From: Methylophilus sp. 14
GTDB lineage: Bacteria; Pseudomonadota; Gammaproteobacteria; Burkholderiales; Methylophilaceae
Direction: 5' to 3'
NCBI RefSeq assembly: GCF_015354345.1
Contig: NZ_JADKYS010000003.1
Coordinates: 1-52,855, forward strand
Length of the DNA stretch: 52,855 nt
Positions 1-31,237 of this stretch are shown piece after piece (position 1 is the first letter of the stretch; every line of letters begins with the position of its first letter). Position numbers and translations under genes: made by a program. The notes below the pieces were generated by a model. That model did not search any database and was not told the origin of the DNA. It worked only from the letters and a program-made list of their open reading frames with translations.

Positions 1-80
1 ATCAACTCGCTCCCGCAGAGTTTGAACGGCGGTATTTCGAGAGGCTCGAAAATATCTAGGCTAGCCGGGTCGATTCATAT

Positions 81-761
81 TTGCGGGAAATCGATACCAC
101 AGAAAGATGGCGAAGTTGGGTTATCAGTTCTCACCAACTTCGTCATAGTCTTGCGAACCAACTTGCTAGAGCTGATTTGGGTTTAATGTTTATTGCCCAT
201 CAATTGAAACATTTATATTCTGCATTGAATGCAATACCCCCGTCAGTTACTTTGATGTATGGGAATATTGCTGATATTTCTGCTCAAAGAGCGAGGCAGA
301 CGACTAACGCATACACCGAGATTGCTTCAAGCCTTTATGATCCCGATACGCCAGTTGCTGGAGGTGGGGCTGAGGAATTCAAACAAAGAAGAAGGGTATA
401 TTTTCAAGGCATGGCCGCTCAAGGCTGGTCCAAAGAAATGCTAATGGCTCAGCTTTCAAAACAAGGTATTCCTTTTGCTAGTGTCGGCACTGGCTATTGC
501 GGAGGTCGTAGGGATCGTTTACTGAAAGACGGGACAAAAGAGACAAGTCCCTGCATTGGTTCGCTTCAATGTAATCCAGGAAAGTGTAGCCAAGCAATTA
601 TTACATCAACGCATGTGCCTCAGTGGAAGCGAATTTATGAGCAAAATATACAGATGGCTCATGATGATGCTTTCGCTCACGCTAAAGACGTTCATTTAAC
701 TGCTGCTTTAGAAGCTAAGATGGTTCTAGAAAGTCTCGGAGAAAAAGTTGAAAATAGTTAA
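81..761 (+). CDS. Tyrosine recombinase, C-terminal half (TnpB/GinC-like), 5' part disrupted or missing
   Basis: The 226 residues contain the last catalytic boxes of a tyrosine recombinase: HQLRH (about residues 18-22, box II), HQLKH (about 41-45, box III) and a YGN tyrosine near residue 60. A Cys-containing tail follows (CGG, CIGSLQCNPGKC around residues 140-168), typical of the large recombinases of island-type recombinase trios. The only start in this frame is TTG at 81. The frame is also open from base 3 to a TAG at 57-59, so either the gene is broken by a nonsense codon or it begins elsewhere. Box I and the catalytic lysine would lie upstream, so this piece alone should be inactive. It overlaps the next gene by 14 bases. 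Confidence 0.7.
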   Translation: MREIDTTERWRSWVISSHQLRHSLANQLARADLGLMFIAHQLKHLYSALNAIPPSVTLMYGNIADISAQRARQTTNAYTEIASSLYDPDTPVAGGGAEEFKQRRRVYFQGMAAQGWSKEMLMAQLSKQGIPFASVGTGYCGGRRDRLLKDGTKETSPCIGSLQCNPGKCSQAIITSTHVPQWKRIYEQNIQMAHDDAFAHAKDVHLTAALEAKMVLESLGEKVENS

Positions 762-1245
762 CAAATCAAGTCTTCCTCAGGCTCTTGAAGAAAAAAATCA
801 AGCTGACTTTATTACGGTTACAAATAGGATTTCTGATGCTTTACAGAAAATATCCTCTAATCCTAAACTCAAACCTACACAGTCAGTGCTTGCTAGATTG
901 TCCAAGGTTAGCAGAGGTACTCTAAATAATAGAGTTTGGCCTTTAGAAAAGCTTGAAGAGATCAAAAGCCAAAGAAAAGATTTAGTAAAACTCGTTGAGA
1001 GTGAGAAAGAAAGTACAATCCCACCTCTGCCGAGCCTAAGCTTAGAAGAGCGCCTGAATTGTAGCCGTGAGGAAGTTCGCGTTTGGAAAACAAAAGCAGA
1101 TCAGTATGCCAAAGACAATGAGCACTTAAGACATCTTCTTGAAGTTCAGACTAGAAGAGTCAACTTATTGCAGTCTAACCTAGAGAATTCAAACGATCCT
1201 CTTTTAAAGAATGTAATTGAGTTTAATACAATAAAACCAATTTAG
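748..1245 (+). CDS. Recombinase accessory protein, HTH plus coiled coil (TnpC/GinD-like)
   Basis: This 165-residue protein starts at TTG 748 behind a GGAGA box at 738-742, inside the end of the recombinase gene, so translation is probably coupled. An HTH-like segment (about residues 48-72, LARLSKVSRGTLNN) is followed by a long charged coiled coil (about 95-150). That plan matches the small fourth gene of GInt islands (ginD) and TnpC of Tn554-like elements, which assist the tyrosine recombinases. The family assignment rests on architecture and position, not on a database match. An alternative is a generic DNA-binding protein of a mobile element. Confidence 0.6.
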   Translation: MKIVNKSSLPQALEEKNQADFITVTNRISDALQKISSNPKLKPTQSVLARLSKVSRGTLNNRVWPLEKLEEIKSQRKDLVKLVESEKESTIPPLPSLSLEERLNCSREEVRVWKTKADQYAKDNEHLRHLLEVQTRRVNLLQSNLENSNDPLLKNVIEFNTIKPI

Positions 1246-3657: not shown

Positions 3658-4935
3658 GTGTTTGAATCATCTTTTAGAAGATGGCTATTGGTTTCAATAG
3701 CTTTCTTGTCAGCCCCATCTATACAGGCTGAACCATTAACACTGGACGCAGCTTGGAATATCGCTGCCCAGAACAACCCAGATCTGAAGCGCTTGATCGC
3801 CAACCAGAGTATTCCTGCCGGCGAATTCCAGGACGCATCCGGTCCACTTTATTACAACCCAACACTGAGTTTGGAAGCCAGAACGCGCCGAATTGCGCAA
3901 ACAGGTGGTTCAGACCCATATCGCGGCGAGTATGGTATTGGTGTTTCACAAACCTTTGAGATTGCAGGCCAACAAGGCTTCCGTAGACAAGCGGCCGAAG
4001 AAAGCAAAACGGCCATTAGTCAGGATATCGCTGAAGAGTACCGGCTCTTGCATGCACAATTAGAAGAGCAGTTCATTAACGTGCTTGCCGTACAAAAGCG
4101 TATAGACGTTGAAAAGCGCATTCTCAAACTCATCGAGCAGAACACCTCACTCTCACGTAAGCGAGTTAGTGCCGGCGAGGATAGTTTGCTTGATGGCAAT
4201 CTGGCCATCGTGGACGCAGAACGTGCAAGAAATCAGCTAATCTCCCTCAATGAGCAACTATTGCGTGCCAGAACTCAACTGGCTGCAACACTACAGCTTA
4301 ATGCAAATGACTTTCCTGAAGTCATGGGCGAGTTAACGCCAAATCAAACGCAATATACGCTGCAAGATCTTTTCAATAAGCTAGATACACGGCCAGGCAT
4401 CCAGGCACTTACCAGTAAAGAGGCTTCTGCACGTTCTCGTTTAGAACTGCAAAAGAGCATGCGTTACCCAGACTTAACAGTCAGTCTGATCAATACGACC
4501 GAGGCCAGCCTGGCAGGTAGCGACAATATCTCTTCCATTGGTGTATCTATGCCTTTGCCTATTTTCCGCCGAAATGCAGCAGGTATTGGTCGGGCGTCGG
4601 CTGAACTCACTCAATCTGAAATCAATCGTGCCTCTGGCACTCGTAATGCAAAAGCGACTGTAGAGGCGGCATGGCTGCGGCGTGAAAACATCAAAGACCG
4701 TGTCAGACGTTTGGATAGCGAGGTATATCCAAAGCTCGAAGAGAATCTGAATCTATCTAAATTAGCGTTTGAAAACGGTGAAATTGGTCTGCCTCAGTTG
4801 TTAATTGTTCAAAGACAAGTTGTTGATGCACAGCGGGACATTATTGACGCTCAGAGGGAGCTTCGTCTTGTGCAGATTGAACTGGAATATATCTCTGGCT
4901 GGTTATCCCCTATCGCTGCGGCCAATCAAAACTAG
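3658..4935 (+). CDS. czcC: Outer-membrane efflux protein of heavy-metal RND system (CzcC-like, TolC family)
   Basis: This 425-residue protein begins at GTG 3658, with GAGAGG upstream. It has a signal peptide ending near SIQA-E and the two long alpha-helical repeats of the TolC/OEP family (helix-rich 30-215 and 235-415, with conserved PxLxxxxA and PLPIFRRN stretches). Its role is the outer-membrane duct of the tripartite pump encoded with czcB and czcA, carrying metal ions from the periplasm out of the cell. The stop is 9 bases before czcB. Length is normal for CzcC. Confidence 0.85.
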   Translation: MFESSFRRWLLVSIAFLSAPSIQAEPLTLDAAWNIAAQNNPDLKRLIANQSIPAGEFQDASGPLYYNPTLSLEARTRRIAQTGGSDPYRGEYGIGVSQTFEIAGQQGFRRQAAEESKTAISQDIAEEYRLLHAQLEEQFINVLAVQKRIDVEKRILKLIEQNTSLSRKRVSAGEDSLLDGNLAIVDAERARNQLISLNEQLLRARTQLAATLQLNANDFPEVMGELTPNQTQYTLQDLFNKLDTRPGIQALTSKEASARSRLELQKSMRYPDLTVSLINTTEASLAGSDNISSIGVSMPLPIFRRNAAGIGRASAELTQSEINRASGTRNAKATVEAAWLRRENIKDRVRRLDSEVYPKLEENLNLSKLAFENGEIGLPQLLIVQRQVVDAQRDIIDAQRELRLVQIELEYISGWLSPIAAANQN

Positions 4936-25601: not shown

Positions 25602-27563
25602 ATGTATCTAAAGCACATTCGAGCCAATAATTTTCGAGCATTTGGAGATGGTAAAAAGGCTCCTGCACTGGATTGGGCTTTAAGGCCTGGTCTTAATATT
25701 TTGGTGGGTGAAAACGATGCTGGCAAAACAACAATAGTCGATGCTATAAGGCAAATACTTCTTACTACCAGTTACGAAAACATCCGGCTCTATGAACATG
25801 ATTTTCATATACATGGAACAGAACGTGCGACTAGCCTTTGGATTGAGGCTACTTTATGTGATCTATCGAGCGAACAACAAGCTAGTGTTCTTGAATGGTT
25901 AACTCATGAGAGCGATGGATCTTGTTCACTAATTATCCACCTCAGTGCAAGGTGGATTCCTCCACAGCCAAACAAACGCGCGCGAGTTGAGTTTTCTGTA
26001 CGTGCAGGGAAAGAGGGAATTGGCCAAGAAATAGGCAGCACAGTTCGTGAGCTAATCCGTGCAACCTATCTGCGACCATTAAGGGATGCTGAAGCGGAGC
26101 TGCGCCCCGGCAGACAATCCCGCTTGTCGCAAATACTTGCAGCACACAAAAATATTGATGGACAGGAAGTCAACGACTTCCAAACAGCCAATCCTAATGA
26201 CGTTCCAAAGAATATTGTAGGTTTAATGGCATTTTCTCAGCACCATATTGGTGAGCATACAGTGATCAAAAGCGTTGAACAGGACATCAACCAAAACTAT
26301 TTAGAAGAGTTTTCATTTGAGAGTGAAAAGTTGCAGTCTCGGATTCGTATCACTCCAGATTTATCACTGACACCAATCTTGGAAAAATTTGAATTAGCTT
26401 TGTTGCCAGGAGGTGATGTGGATCCAAATGCCAGATGTGCTCGCGGGTTGGGATATAACAATGCGTTATTCATGGCAACTGAACTAGTTTTGCTGAGAGA
26501 AGGTGATGATCTTGCGCTGTTATTAATTGAAGAGCCTGAAGCTCATTTGCACCCGCAATTGCAATATAGAGTAATGGACTTGCTTGAAAATCACTCTAAA
26601 ACCAAAGAAACTGATGAAAGACAAGTACAAGTAGTGATGACTACTCACAGCCCATCATTAGTTTCCCATACAGACATAGAGAACATGACCTTAGTGCATA
26701 AGGCTCAGACCTTCCCGTTATCCGCTGGCAATACTAAACTGAAAAAAACTGACTACTCATTCTTACGTAGATTTATAGAAGCGACGAAAGCCAATCTCTT
26801 CTTTGCAAGAGGGGTCATGATGGTGGAAGGTCCGGCTGAAGCTATCCTACTTCCAACCTTAGCAGAAGTCTGTGATCGCTCATTGTCCAAACATGGTGTT
26901 TCACTGGTAAATGTAGGTCATACGGGGCTTTTTCACTATGCTCGAATTTTGCAGGTTGAAGGTGCTGGACCAGAGCTAAAAATTCCTGTGGTCTGCTTAA
27001 CTGATCGAGATATTGTTCCTGAATCGGCTAAAACATTTGTTTCTGCCCCCGGGGAAGGAAAGAAACGTTTCACTTCTGATTATAACGAAGAAGAGCTTGC
27101 AAAGTTTTTACTAGACAAGAGTAATCGGGCGCAGGGAGGCAGCACTATCGTGTGTATTTCCGACAAATGGACGCTTGAATATGATCTCGCTTATTTTGGG
27201 TGCGCAAAACTCATGTATTACGCCATCCAGCTCGGAAGGAAAGCTAAAACTAAAGGTGAAAGGTTAGAGGATGCTGATGAAACTAAAGCCAAGGAAGCAG
27301 CAAAAGAATCTTGGGAGGAATTAGAAACCAAAGGTTTGACTGAGGAGGAGTTGGCAAATCAAATCTTCAAGCCTCTGTACAATAAAGAAGCTTCGAAGGC
27401 AATCGTAGCCCAATATGCTGCAGAGCTTTTGTTGTCTGGTGAGTTTGGTTCTGGTGATGAACTTTTCAATCGCCTTCCGCCGTATCTAAAAAAGGCATTC
27501 ATACATCTAACCGGGGATAAAAGTAAACCAGCAACAAAAACCGAGACAACGGCGGTGAATTAA
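25602..27563 (+). CDS. gajA: OLD-family ATP-dependent nuclease, GajA-like (Gabija defence)
   Basis: The 653-residue protein joins an ABC-type ATPase to a TOPRIM nuclease. Walker A is GENDAGKT (residues 36-43), Walker B/signature LLIEEPEAHLHPQ (about 305-317), and the TOPRIM part shows VEGPAEAILLP (about 409-419), Asp468-x-Asp470 (DRD) and KWTLEYDLA, the class 2 OLD pattern. In Gabija it nicks or cuts DNA and is held off by nucleotides. It has GAGAGAG before the ATG. The helicase partner starts 3 bases after its stop. It is somewhat longer than the best-known GajA (about 580 residues), mainly at the C-terminus. Confidence 0.83.
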   Translation: MYLKHIRANNFRAFGDGKKAPALDWALRPGLNILVGENDAGKTTIVDAIRQILLTTSYENIRLYEHDFHIHGTERATSLWIEATLCDLSSEQQASVLEWLTHESDGSCSLIIHLSARWIPPQPNKRARVEFSVRAGKEGIGQEIGSTVRELIRATYLRPLRDAEAELRPGRQSRLSQILAAHKNIDGQEVNDFQTANPNDVPKNIVGLMAFSQHHIGEHTVIKSVEQDINQNYLEEFSFESEKLQSRIRITPDLSLTPILEKFELALLPGGDVDPNARCARGLGYNNALFMATELVLLREGDDLALLLIEEPEAHLHPQLQYRVMDLLENHSKTKETDERQVQVVMTTHSPSLVSHTDIENMTLVHKAQTFPLSAGNTKLKKTDYSFLRRFIEATKANLFFARGVMMVEGPAEAILLPTLAEVCDRSLSKHGVSLVNVGHTGLFHYARILQVEGAGPELKIPVVCLTDRDIVPESAKTFVSAPGEGKKRFTSDYNEEELAKFLLDKSNRAQGGSTIVCISDKWTLEYDLAYFGCAKLMYYAIQLGRKAKTKGERLEDADETKAKEAAKESWEELETKGLTEEELANQIFKPLYNKEASKAIVAQYAAELLLSGEFGSGDELFNRLPPYLKKAFIHLTGDKSKPATKTETTAVN

Positions 27564-27566
27564 ATT

Positions 27567-29480
27567 ATGTCAGTTATTGATTTAAACACTGCTGATCTTT
27601 TGTGGTTAAAGGAAGTCAGTCCAGATTTGGACTTTAGCGATACTGAGAGACAAGAAGCTATTCTAGAAACAACTTCACGGGACTTCAATGCCGTCCCAGG
27701 AAGTGGTAAAACATCACTGCTTGCAGCAAAACTTTTACTAATTGCAAGAAAATGGAATCAGCAGAAGAAGGGGCTCTGCGTACTCAGTCATACAAACGTT
27801 GCTCGAGAAGAAATCACTAGGCGTTTAAAATTAAATGCCGACGGCCAAAAACTTTTAACCTACCCACATTATATCGGGACGATTCACGGCTTTGTGAACC
27901 AATATATAGCTTTACCGGCACTCCGAAGTGCGGGCATCAAAGTTGAGATTATTGATGACGATGCATTTGCAAAAAAAGCGCAGAAACTTCTTCAGCAATA
28001 CAAATTTAAGACACTACGGGGTTGGCTAAAATACCAGGAAAATGCAGACGAATTAATCAATACACTCTACTTTAAAGGTAGTGAATTGGAAATATCGACC
28101 GAAAGTGGAACTCTGACCAACGCTACCACTCCATCTGGGAAACAAGTACGAGAACTGAAATATTCACTTTTAGACGCAGGAATCTTTCGGCACCGAGATA
28201 TGTTTGCCTTTGCTGAGAGCGCTTTAAAAAGTAACCCGAATCTTCTGGACGTAATTTTCCGACGTTTTCCACTAGTATTTATTGATGAGATGCAAGATAC
28301 CTCCTGGGCACAGGAAAGTATTCTAAATAGCATCTTTGAAAACAAATCCACTGTTCAACGATTTGGAGATATTGATCAGAAAATCCTCACGGACGATGAA
28401 GGCATTGTTAATTGCACATTCCCCCGGGCAGGTCATAAAGTAATTAGTACTAGTAAACGATTTGGCAACAAAATTGCTGAAGCAGTAGCCAGTGTTCGCT
28501 TATCCCAGCTTCCTGTGATTGGAGAAGCAAATCAAGAAATGCCGCCAGTATTATTGCTATATAAGACTGCTGACGTTGAGAAAGTGCTAACCAAATTTGG
28601 TCAGTTAGTAATTGATCGTTTTACTGACCTAGAGTTGGAGAAAAAATCAGTCCGTGGCATGTGCACGCGTAAAGTCGGAAGTGGAGACGTGGTTCCTGGA
28701 CGACACTTAGGTGATTACTGGCCCGCGTTTGCGCAAACTCAGACGGGGGCAACTAATTCAAATGATAATTTCTGGCAGGCTCTCTTGCCCCCACCTAACC
28801 ACAATAATGAATCTATTCTTTTCGGAAGGGTAGCTCAAGTTCGACGAGCAATATTGCTAATCATGCGGGAAGCCGGCTCTCCAATCGTTGAGAGCATCAG
28901 AGATAGTAATGCTTTAATAAAGGCAGTCACTGAGCAAACTGGAACTGCATTACCCATACATCTATTAGTTCAAGATCTTATACTAAAACCTGATTTATAT
29001 GCCACTCCTGCAGCGCGCGATGTTTTGATAGATTACATTTATACGCGTTTAAAATCTTATCTTCCAACGGGAACTCTGCTTCAATCCTTCAAAAATCTGT
29101 CCACATTTGATCAGGCCTTTTTCTTGTTAAACCCAGCACAACTTCCAAATCTTTGTGCAGTTTCTCATATGGGTCGAGATATAAATTACACAATAGGGAC
29201 AGTGGCAAGCATGAAGGGTGAAACCCACATTGCCTCGTTAGTAATGGAATCTTATGGTGGTAATAGTAAGAAGTTTGATTTGGAAATGGCACTTCCATAT
29301 GTTGCAGGGATTAAGAAAAATCCAGCTAGCCTTAGTAAATTGCAGCGAGGTCAACTCAGGAATTTGTATGTTGCAATGTCTCGCCCAACGCACTTTCTCT
29401 GTCTTGCAGTGAATGAGACACGTATAGCCCCACAAACCTTGAGTGCTTTAATTGAAAAAGGGTGGGTAGTAGAGCAATAA
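27567..29480 (+). CDS. gajB: UvrD/Rep-like superfamily 1 helicase, GajB-like
   Basis: This 637-residue helicase has Walker A in VPGSGKTS (Gly44-Thr49), a motif Ia-like LSHTNVAREEI (about 72-82), Walker B FIDEMQDTS (Asp240, Glu241), a QxF/GD motif near RFGDIDQK, and a C-terminal motif VI-like LYVAMSRPTHFL. It pairs with the OLD nuclease, as GajB does, to sense or process DNA during phage defence. The length exceeds that of reference GajB (about 490); insertions lie between motifs III and VI. The two genes are separated by only three bases and are surely co-transcribed. Confidence 0.8.
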   Translation: MSVIDLNTADLLWLKEVSPDLDFSDTERQEAILETTSRDFNAVPGSGKTSLLAAKLLLIARKWNQQKKGLCVLSHTNVAREEITRRLKLNADGQKLLTYPHYIGTIHGFVNQYIALPALRSAGIKVEIIDDDAFAKKAQKLLQQYKFKTLRGWLKYQENADELINTLYFKGSELEISTESGTLTNATTPSGKQVRELKYSLLDAGIFRHRDMFAFAESALKSNPNLLDVIFRRFPLVFIDEMQDTSWAQESILNSIFENKSTVQRFGDIDQKILTDDEGIVNCTFPRAGHKVISTSKRFGNKIAEAVASVRLSQLPVIGEANQEMPPVLLLYKTADVEKVLTKFGQLVIDRFTDLELEKKSVRGMCTRKVGSGDVVPGRHLGDYWPAFAQTQTGATNSNDNFWQALLPPPNHNNESILFGRVAQVRRAILLIMREAGSPIVESIRDSNALIKAVTEQTGTALPIHLLVQDLILKPDLYATPAARDVLIDYIYTRLKSYLPTGTLLQSFKNLSTFDQAFFLLNPAQLPNLCAVSHMGRDINYTIGTVASMKGETHIASLVMESYGGNSKKFDLEMALPYVAGIKKNPASLSKLQRGQLRNLYVAMSRPTHFLCLAVNETRIAPQTLSALIEKGWVVEQ

Positions 29481-29860: not shown

Positions 29861-30712
29861 TTAGACAGAGAAAGGATACGAAATTGGGTCATGGTATTGG
29901 TATCCAATAACTTCGAAATCATCTACTGTTACCCATGTTTCCAGGTCTTCTAAAGTTTTTATATTTGGATTTATTTTTAGTGTTGGGGAGTCAAATGGTT
30001 CACGTTTTAATTGTACATTTTGCATTAGATCTAATTGATCTTCATATATGTGTGCATTAACGATTTTATGATAGGCCTTACCGGGCTTGTGGCCAGTGAT
30101 TTGAGCCATAATTGCTAAGAAAAAATATACCTGAACCATGTTGAAATTCAGTCCTAATGGAACATCGCAGCTTCTTTGAGTGCTATTGAGGTACAGTGTG
30201 TCTCCAAGTAACGAGAAGTGATGACTATACATACATGGGCGCAAACAACCCATATGAAAAGCTCCTGGATGATAAAAAGTATAGATTTCACCGCGATCAT
30301 CTAAACCAGCTCTTAAGTCGTTGTATATCTTTCTAAGGAGGTCTATGCTACCGCCGTCTGGTTTAGGGAAATTCCGTCCTATTTTTCCGTAAATAAATCC
30401 ACAATCATCCTCTCCTTTTCTGAAAGGTGAGGAAAGCCAAGCACTATTCTCATTAGCGTTTGCATCCCATGTTTTCGTACCGATGGCTCTAAACTGCGCA
30501 GCATTGTCATAGCCGCGAATATAGCCGAGCATTTCAGCAATTGCGGATTTGTAATAGCTTTTTCGAGTGGTTATTAAAGGAAACTTTCCTTCATCAACGT
30601 CATAAGTTAAGTCCGCATTAATTAATGTAAGGCATCTTTTGCCTGTACGTTCATTTTGCACCCAAACCCCATTGTCAATAATATTTTTTGCCAAGTCTAA
30701 ATATTGCTTCAT
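29861..30712 (-). CDS. thyA: Island-borne thymidylate synthase (long, gammaproteobacterial-type ThyA)
   Basis: The 283-residue enzyme converts dUMP and methylene-tetrahydrofolate to dTMP and dihydrofolate. The catalytic Cys is C160 in LRPCMYSHH, the phosphate-binding QRSCD motif is at 179-183, and the later [10 protein letters not shown] segment is intact. It ends PISYPFSV. The length and ending recall, from memory, the ThyA of Vibrio and Shewanella rather than the 264-residue type, whose C-terminus (IKAPVAV) is still present in the broken resident gene next door. It is oriented opposite to that fragment and lies 238 bases inside the island's right boundary. It presumably supplies the host's thymidylate synthase. 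Confidence 0.92.
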
Positions 30713-30859
30713 TTGAAAACCTTAAGGGGAAGTTGCTGATTTAAATTAAGAGGCCTATCGCCAGGTTGATCATTATACCAACTCTGGAATTCTCAACATT
30801 TACGGCAGAAATTATAGAATCATTATTTCAAATTTGAATAGGAATTATAAGAGTCTATG

Positions 30860-30890
30860 TTTTGTACAATTTTTATATATTTTGTACAAT
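30860..30890. repeat. Two direct copies of TTTTGTACAAT near the island end
   Basis: Copies at 30860-30870 and 30880-30890 are 20 bases apart and each contains the palindrome TTGTACAA. They lie 60-90 bases inside the island's right boundary and upstream of island thyA, so they could be recombinase accessory sites or thyA promoter elements. Confidence 0.5.
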
Positions 30891-30952
30891 GATAGTCTGA
30901 TGAGTTGGTATTGATATGTGTATGTAATGAACACATTCATGGTGGTTAGAAT

Positions 30953-31237
30953 TTTCTCGGCGTGCCATTCAATATCGCGTCTTATGCTTTATTGACCATG
31001 ATGGTGGCACAGGTATGTGATTTGCAACTGGGTGACTTTGTGCACACGCTGGGCGACGCGCATATTTACAGCAACCATATGGAGCAGGTCAAAGAGCAAT
31101 TGTCGCGTACGCCACGTGCATTGCCGCATATGCGCATTAACCCAGATGTGAAAGACCTGTTCGCGTTCAAATTTGAAGACTTCACCTTGGAAAATTACGA
31201 CCCGCATCCAGCCATCAAGGCGCCAGTCGCCGTGTAG
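30953..31237 (+). pseudogene. thyA: 3' fragment of the resident thyA
   Basis: The frame from 30953 reads [14 protein letters not shown] and continues for 95 residues to IKAPVAV, matching positions about 170-264 of ordinary bacterial ThyA, including [12 protein letters not shown]. The preceding in-frame triplet but one is a stop (TAG, 30947-30949), and the catalytic Cys and the QRSCD motif are missing, so the piece cannot be an enzyme even if translated from GTG 30962. Base usage is that of the right-hand chromosome. It marks the island's insertion point. Confidence 0.9.

Follow-up and report, generated by a model that had tools for sequence, protein, structure and literature searches.

How can a genomic island occupy the middle of thyA, the gene for thymidylate synthase, and leave its host alive? 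The question is raised by Methylophilus sp. 14 (G000), whose 3.0-Mb genome is 99.98% complete and from which a stretch of 52,855 nucleotides was analysed (G000:C9:1-52855, here called the window). Exactly three ThyA matches were found when the genome was searched with the Pfam profile PF00303: the first part of a short-type thyA on contig C1 (C1:1009358-1009888, plus strand, model positions 1-180), a complete long-type thyA in the window (29864-30709, minus strand, model 1-266) and the 3' part of a short-type thyA (window 30950-31234, plus strand, model 172-266). A preliminary description of the window had read the locus as an island that lies inside thyA and carries a substitute thyA. Our analysis supports this reading, and the finding of a thyA-splitting island with its own thyA is confirmed. 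The element is quite probably an island of the GInt type (Genomic Island with three Integrases; Bardaji et al. 2017, PMC5385486), with thyA serving as its attachment site and a divergent, functional thyA among its genes.

The split gene and the island

The resident thyA is cut between codons 172 and 173, and its two in-frame parts add up to the whole gene. Codons 1-172 are located at the end of contig C1, which terminates 1.3 kb past this first part, and the left end of the island (C1:1009870) lies outside the window. The piece on C1 is the plus-oriented 5' part that had been expected at the other end of the island, and the profile search found no complete resident-type thyA elsewhere in G000. 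In the window, as the preliminary description held, the gene is reduced to a C-terminal remnant, which consists of the last base of codon 172, codons 173-264 and the stop (30958-31237, plus strand; PF00303). Two details had to be corrected. The remnant proper begins with the third base of codon 172, at 30958 and not at 30953, the in-frame bases just ahead of it being island end or shared repeat; and the resident gene codes for QRSAD, not QRSCD, at the break.

The right end of the island (30713-30957) is AT-rich, as had been noticed. The 245 bases from the start of the island thyA to the resident remnant have a GC content of 0.302, against 0.426 for the island and 0.498 for the flanks; the corresponding end in Methylotenera oryzisoli (G128) has 0.274. 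Two TTTTGTACAAT boxes lie in it, at 30860 and 30880. A short junction repeat, also anticipated, is present: attR GGTTAGAATTTTCT (30944-30957, plus strand) and its partner attL GCTGATATTTTTCT on contig C1 have TTTTCT in common and, read by eye, are identical at 10 of 14 nucleotides. The junction repeat of G128, judged by eye and not by a score, looks weaker. TTTTGTAC boxes occur near both island ends (window 30860 and 30880, plus one 18 bases inside the left end); the island holds seven copies, four of them away from the ends, against 1.9 expected in shuffles, and they are possible arm sites of the recombinases.

The entire island, together with both thyA parts, was found on one 1.7-Mb contig (NZ_JADKYT010000001.1) of Methylophilus sp. 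QUAN (G009), in the order hom, thrC, thyA codons 1-172, island, thyA codons 173-264 and a gene for a PepSY protein. It is 37,228 bp long, with ginABCD at its left end and the 283-residue thyA at its right. An assembly artefact or contamination might be suspected, given that the thyA parts lie on two contigs in both G000 and G128 and that sequence resembling an insertion sequence stands at the G000 break; it is extremely unlikely in view of the single contig of G009 and of G128, which shows the arrangement with its own diverged sequence.

The four gin genes of G009 (381, 621, 647 and 165 aa) run in the same direction with overlapping ends. The phage-integrase domain PF00589 was matched by GinA (E 4.1e-14), GinC (3.6e-7) and, below the Pfam cut-off, GinB (2.0e-4), and GinD had no Pfam domain match. 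The window contains the 3' part of ginC, the third tyrosine recombinase (69-761, plus strand; residues 418-647, 98.7-99% identical to the intact GinC of G009), and the small fourth gene ginD (748-1245, plus strand; 165 aa, 100% identical to the G009 protein, no Pfam domain). Contig C1 carries the first 1,246 island bases, encoding GinA residues 1-240, and then passes into different sequence that resembles an insertion sequence by look, not by comparison with an IS library; the window starts at about island base 4,784. The 3.5 kb that lie between these GinA and GinC pieces in G009 were not recovered from G000, and no GinC residues beyond 418-647 were found in that genome. Because the gin operon is broken, the island copy in the window is probably crippled and possibly immobile. 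Elsewhere in G000 lies another four-gene module laid out like a GInt, divergent from the first (C3:10677-15785; 371, 547, 622 and 157 aa), and a module of nearly equal gene sizes occurs in G184 (C31:1342-6433).

The cargo (1246-29480), described by Pfam for part of the ORFs and by PADLOC, includes two heavy-metal P-type ATPases, outer-membrane efflux proteins, a multicopper oxidase, HEPN and DUF4238 proteins without a PADLOC match, and a Gabija pair, GajA (25602-27563, plus strand; PDLC00099, E 5.7e-218) and GajB (27567-29480, plus strand; PDLC00139, E 8.7e-218). About 1.6 kb of the G009 island, including a 562-aa ORF, is absent from G000.

Our assignment of the element to the GInts is based on its layout and not on comparing its sequence with those of reference GInts. 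In common with the GInts described in PMC5385486, it has an operon at its left end for three tyrosine recombinases and one small protein, the order of gin operon, cargo and short AT-rich 3' end, and imperfect direct repeats, which are 10-17 nt long in GInts and 14 nt (10 identical by eye) here. GinD is reported there as having no InterProScan domain. The targets named in that paper include the 5' end of an ABC transporter gene, the end of ssb, whose product stays the same, and the terminal part of a duplicated nrdA, whereas here the target is the middle of the thymidylate synthase gene and a substitute is carried along; the words thyA and thymidylate are absent from its main text. The layout is closer to a GInt than to a strand-biased circularizing element (SE), which is described as having an intA-tfp-intB and srap set and as occurring only in Gammaproteobacteria, GInts being found in Betaproteobacteria too (PMC10214605).

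The island-borne thyA and its repeated arrival

The complete thyA on the opposite strand (29861-30712, minus strand; PF00303, NF002498) encodes 283 residues ending in PISYPFSV, just as the preliminary description had it. Its product scored 556 bits against the NCBIfam thymidylate synthase model NF002498 (cut-off 427). It retains Arg21, Cys146, Arg166, Ser167, Asp169, Asn177, His207 and Tyr209 (E. coli numbering), which we take to be catalytic or ligand residues and which are retained in all eight island or plasmid-GInt ThyA rows checked. None of 852 bases differs between the G000 and G009 copies, and pN/pS was 0.08 against the island copy of M. oryzisoli and 0.12 against that of G022, synonymous sites being near saturation. 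As far as sequence comparison goes, these results demonstrate that the rescue gene is intact and under purifying selection. It is the only intact ThyA in G000 (PF00303). ThyX was not found in G000, G009, G128, G022, G001, G005, G011 and G016 (8/8), nor in G353, G311, G725 and G087 (4/4). The G000 cell appears to depend on the island for thymidylate. In G009 the island thyA may not be the sole copy, because a further ThyA-like gene of 323 aa is present (C1:1643583-1644542); it groups in the tree, on long branches, with plasmid and G195 ThyA of 316-319 aa. A promoter-like site for the rescue gene (TTCAAA-16-TATAAT, minus strand, 30838-30811) is a consensus match only, and the scanned stretch had 11 such sites against 6.4 expected (sd 2.8).

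In a ThyA tree of 58 rows, the 283-aa protein falls not in the resident lineage but far from it, with support of 100/99 on either side of the split, and is nested in a long-type clade (100/100, 16 rows); the program warned of unsure long branches, such as G434 and G725, which are other rows. Since long-type ThyA is the sole ThyA of 12 other Methylophilaceae (12 of the 178 genomes with a PF00303 match), the donor of the rescue gene probably belonged to this family. A more exotic source was rejected, the tree placing the gene among the long-type ThyA of Methylophilaceae.

Was the long-type gene perhaps already present beside the short one, so that the island hit a redundant gene? Besides the 12 genomes just mentioned, the position of the stand-alone long thyA fits this order of events: it adjoins thrC in 8/8 checkable genomes (G174, whose contig lacks thrC, and G080, G081 and G083 are left out of this count). 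We nevertheless regard it as very improbable. The long copy of G000 and G009 lies inside the island and is identical in both, while the flanks differ by about 10%, and among 22 genomes of the genus, 16 with a single short-type thyA and four with a single long-type one (G001, G005, G011, G016), the remaining two, the split island carriers G000 and G009, are the only ones with both types. We also considered whether the stand-alone long genes are direct footprints of the island; this was rejected for G001, G005, G011, G016, G160, G082 and G084, because their thyA shares the orientation of thrC, the reverse of that of the island copy. The only reversed case among those checked is G087 (C100:7595-8446), where the stand-alone long thyA has the orientation of the island copy and lies between thrC and another gene, presumably folA; no island remnant was found beside it.

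Between G000 and G009 the island is 100% identical over 1,246 bases, 99.93% over 2,788 and 98.7% over 28.1 kb, whereas identity in the flanks is 90.9% over 4.0 kb and 89.0% over 8.8 kb. The two resident thyA parts have pS of 0.20 and 0.32 and pN of 0.002 and 0.014. Their differences are nearly all silent, and they therefore diverged while thyA still worked. Given the 98.7-100% identity of the island, the 89-91% identity of the flanks and these silent differences, the island entered each thyA after the species split. Separate entry into thyA in two Methylophilus species is thereby demonstrated at the sequence level, and so is that of a distant relative of the island into the thyA of Methylotenera oryzisoli. 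In this third genome, G128, the GInt cuts thyA at the same codons and has different cargo, its GinA, GinB, GinC and GinD are 55, 61, 62 and 49% identical to those of the Methylophilus island, and its rescue ThyA, 89% identical, is found in the same place, reversed and about 260 bases from the resident remnant. Its thyA parts are split over two contigs. G009 and G128 bear out the suggestion in the preliminary description that other genomes might have thyA cut at the same codon beside a second thyA.

Other elements that interrupt thyA

PF00303 was searched in overlapping sets of 41, 187 and 369 genomes and matched in 41, 178 and 332. Candidates were picked by eye from the rows of the 187- and 369-genome sets, of which 20 and 13 were re-examined, weak rows of the latter set (such as G882, G814, G779 and G899) being left out. 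Recombinase searches covered 399 and 349 genomes of the order. Besides the genome of the window, resolved splits came from the thyA searches (G009, G128, G022, G725) and the recombinase searches (G353, G311). All of these (7/7) carry another thyA inside the element, and in 7/7 the rescue type differs from the resident type. This count leaves out 15 genomes with partial thyA matches (G136, G167, G188, G175, G125, G170, G109, G153, G634, G738, G825, G730, G583, G605 and G893), in 13 of which the thyA piece lies at, or at most 50 bases from, a contig end. The rescue ThyA is at most 57% identical to the 5' part of its own resident in every resolved case, and the tree distinguishes at least three different rescue types.

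In G353, from another family of the same order, thyA is cut near codon 208 by a 33-kb insert. Its GinA-C are 25-30% related to those of the Methylophilus island, the small fourth gene of the module has no match to GinD, and a 277-aa thyA follows that gene directly. A different recombinase, of 475-476 aa and 84% identical between the two genomes, occurs in G022 and G311, where thyA is cut at the GP(V/L)YG motif. In G311 its gene comes fourth in a four-gene module (749, 699, 190 and 475 aa) and is followed by the rescue thyA; no 3' thyA remnant was found there. In G022 the last module gene is whole and the first and third survive as stubs (58% and 64% identical), so the module has been deleted internally; the element ends, read by eye, are 10-bp inverted repeats. 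The resident gene of G022 is of the short type and its rescue gene of the long type; that of G311 is long-like and its rescue gene of another type. In G725, a member of the same class, thyA is cut near codon 176, and a 307-aa thyA and a small serine resolvase lie by the left junction; no integrase was identified, and the parts are on two contigs. G725 and G311 are the weaker cases of disruption and rescue. Two Pseudomonas plasmid GInts, one of P. putida and a remnant in P. asiatica, the closest by GinC in the plasmid collection, carry thyA immediately behind ginD, and the stretches scanned around them contained no broken thyA. The rescue ThyA of G353, G311 and these two plasmids form one clade with that of pMPPla107 (100/100), near whose thyA no gin genes are annotated.

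With narrow patterns, GinC was found in no viral contig and, among genome contigs, only in G009 and G128; in the 399-genome sample of the order it was found only in G000 and G353. Among plasmids, 26 records matched GinC, with relatives 23-35% identical and mostly annotated as tyrosine recombinases; of three viewed, two had thyA and one had none. The four-gene module was matched in 16 plasmid records, and none of the four viewed, the last with large unannotated gaps, had an annotated thyA beside it. Clear relatives of the G022 recombinase numbered four in 349 genomes, and only that of G311 lies beside thyA; those of G241 and G434 do not, and the G305 contig is just 3.8 kb long. In E. coli, no thyA island was found: in 5,374 of 5,375 matched genomes (sample of 5,426, the 51 without a match left out) 80% or more of thyA lies at a single place, and the sole exception is a truncated thyA without an island.

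Some relatives of the G311 module adjoin other partial genes. Those at G434:C8:113323-121063 and G241:C1:1661110-1668409 have neighbours that, by their protein starts, look to us like the initial portion of comM/yifB and an incomplete rtcB. On account of these partial neighbours, this family of modules may use several conserved genes as targets.

Within thyA, the insertion sites fall in conserved motifs. Mean conservation of the insertion windows was 0.63 against 0.52 for random ones (P ~0.008), in a test of four sites with our own alignment and choice of sites, single sites ranging from the 75th to the 94th percentile. Of the 27 bases in the nine target codons, 13 are the same in the island copy as in the resident gene; 18 intact relatives, selected because they have the resident's peptide at this site, match the resident gene at 20-25. 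It is plausible that the divergent target codons would spare the island copy from both the recombinases and homologous exchange. The PLGLNF found there is a general feature of long-type ThyA, and therefore did not evolve for self-protection.

The co-occurrence of a broken and a whole thyA does not by itself prove an evolved unit, because insertions without a spare thyA would never be sequenced. Perhaps, then, the second thyA is ordinary cargo, and insertions are visible only where a spare happens to be present. Such a survivor effect, with selection hiding all other insertions, would sit well with the variety of rescue types and with GInts that have no thyA: the one on P. putida pSY153-MDR has no annotated thyA nearby, and no thyA split was seen with the second GInt-like module of G000 or with that of G184 (GinC match 20-21%), whose thyA is intact. 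Against it, the spare lies inside the element in every resolved case, thyA keeps a fixed place at the right end of two GInts that are 49-62% alike and differ in cargo, and it directly follows ginD in the two plasmid GInts and, likewise, the module in G353. We judge the survivor effect unlikely. That disruption and rescue is a general, convergent island strategy, in which several recombinase families pair a thyA motif with a divergent thyA, is a wider claim, which we put forward tentatively.

A proposed mechanism and its known counterparts

We propose that the circular form of the island would recombine with the conserved thyA codons by means of GinABCD, and that the incoming thyA would supply thymidylate once the resident gene is cut. 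The rescue sequence would be too divergent to be targeted again or recombined away. Precise excision would rejoin the resident thyA, and any other loss of the island would presumably kill the cell. In this way the rescue gene would open an otherwise lethal, conserved landing site and tie the host to the island. The best reading of the data is disruption followed by rescue from a divergent copy, an arrangement by which the island becomes difficult to lose, with both excision and lethality inferred. A mobile element may thus address some of the most conserved codons of an essential gene without host death, and an island could become indispensable without a toxin. Core housekeeping genes could be swapped between lineages by this route, which would mislead gene trees and lists of essential genes. 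Were the strategy general, it would open a near-universal landing site, block re-insertion and make the island essential to its host; the host thyA would be replaced over time (compare the stand-alone long thyA in 12/178 genomes and its reversed position in G087), and there would be a natural counterpart of engineered gene drives. Synthetic cleave-and-rescue and home-and-rescue drives destroy an essential gene while providing a recoded version that is safe from further attack; they differ from the island in being engineered, nuclease-based and used in sexual eukaryotes.

The principle is already in print for recA, tmk and the thymidylate synthase of Clostridioides difficile, and the present cases would tie these isolated reports to one principle, with harmless methylotrophs as a test set. 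No published thyA island was found in the literature searched, which was thin on subscription papers. What appears to be new is the GInt-in-thyA form and its recurrence: a rescue gene conserved across modules that are 49-62% alike, separate arrivals at one codon, and recurrence over different sets of recombinases, with the types changing roles between rescue and resident. In C. difficile, a thymidylate synthase gene is interrupted by a 4.2 kb insert that brings its own version of the gene (Knetsch et al. 2011, as cited in PMC4405046). The tmk island of Pseudomonas putida KT2440 likewise splits an essential gene of the thymidylate pathway, and the dNMPK that it carries proved essential (Wirth et al. 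2023, PMC10653934). According to that report, some strains have a stand-alone dNMPK at the tmk locus, a parallel to the stand-alone long thyA. It differs in that the substitute comes from another enzyme family and the recombinase set consists of a TetR protein, two recombinases and one unknown; in our island both target and cargo gene are thyA, not tmk and dNMPK.

The recA mobile element (RME) of Vibrio cholerae S24 resembles our island in lying within a housekeeping gene of which it carries a divergent copy (PMC4405046). RME and the VpRME of V. parahaemolyticus are described as 30-33 kb islands inside recA (PMC4405046, PMC4334540); the recA copy of RME is reported to be functional, and excision to restore recA (PMC4405046). 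The authors of PMC4334540 already suggested that genes may often be disrupted in this way, the event coming to notice only where it is complemented. Both elements differ from ours in their recA target, inverted repeats of 9 and 6 bp and non-GInt layout, and an RME is recognised by insertion in recA with a divergent recA, where our element has thyA in both roles. In the gene table of VpRME, two large genes, a smaller one and an integrase by the broken recA repeat the layout of the G311 module. A relative of that module on the Providencia plasmid pPROV073-3 (4825-15751) is immediately followed by a short umuD and, at a greater distance downstream, by umuC, and the recA RME is described as carrying umuDC.
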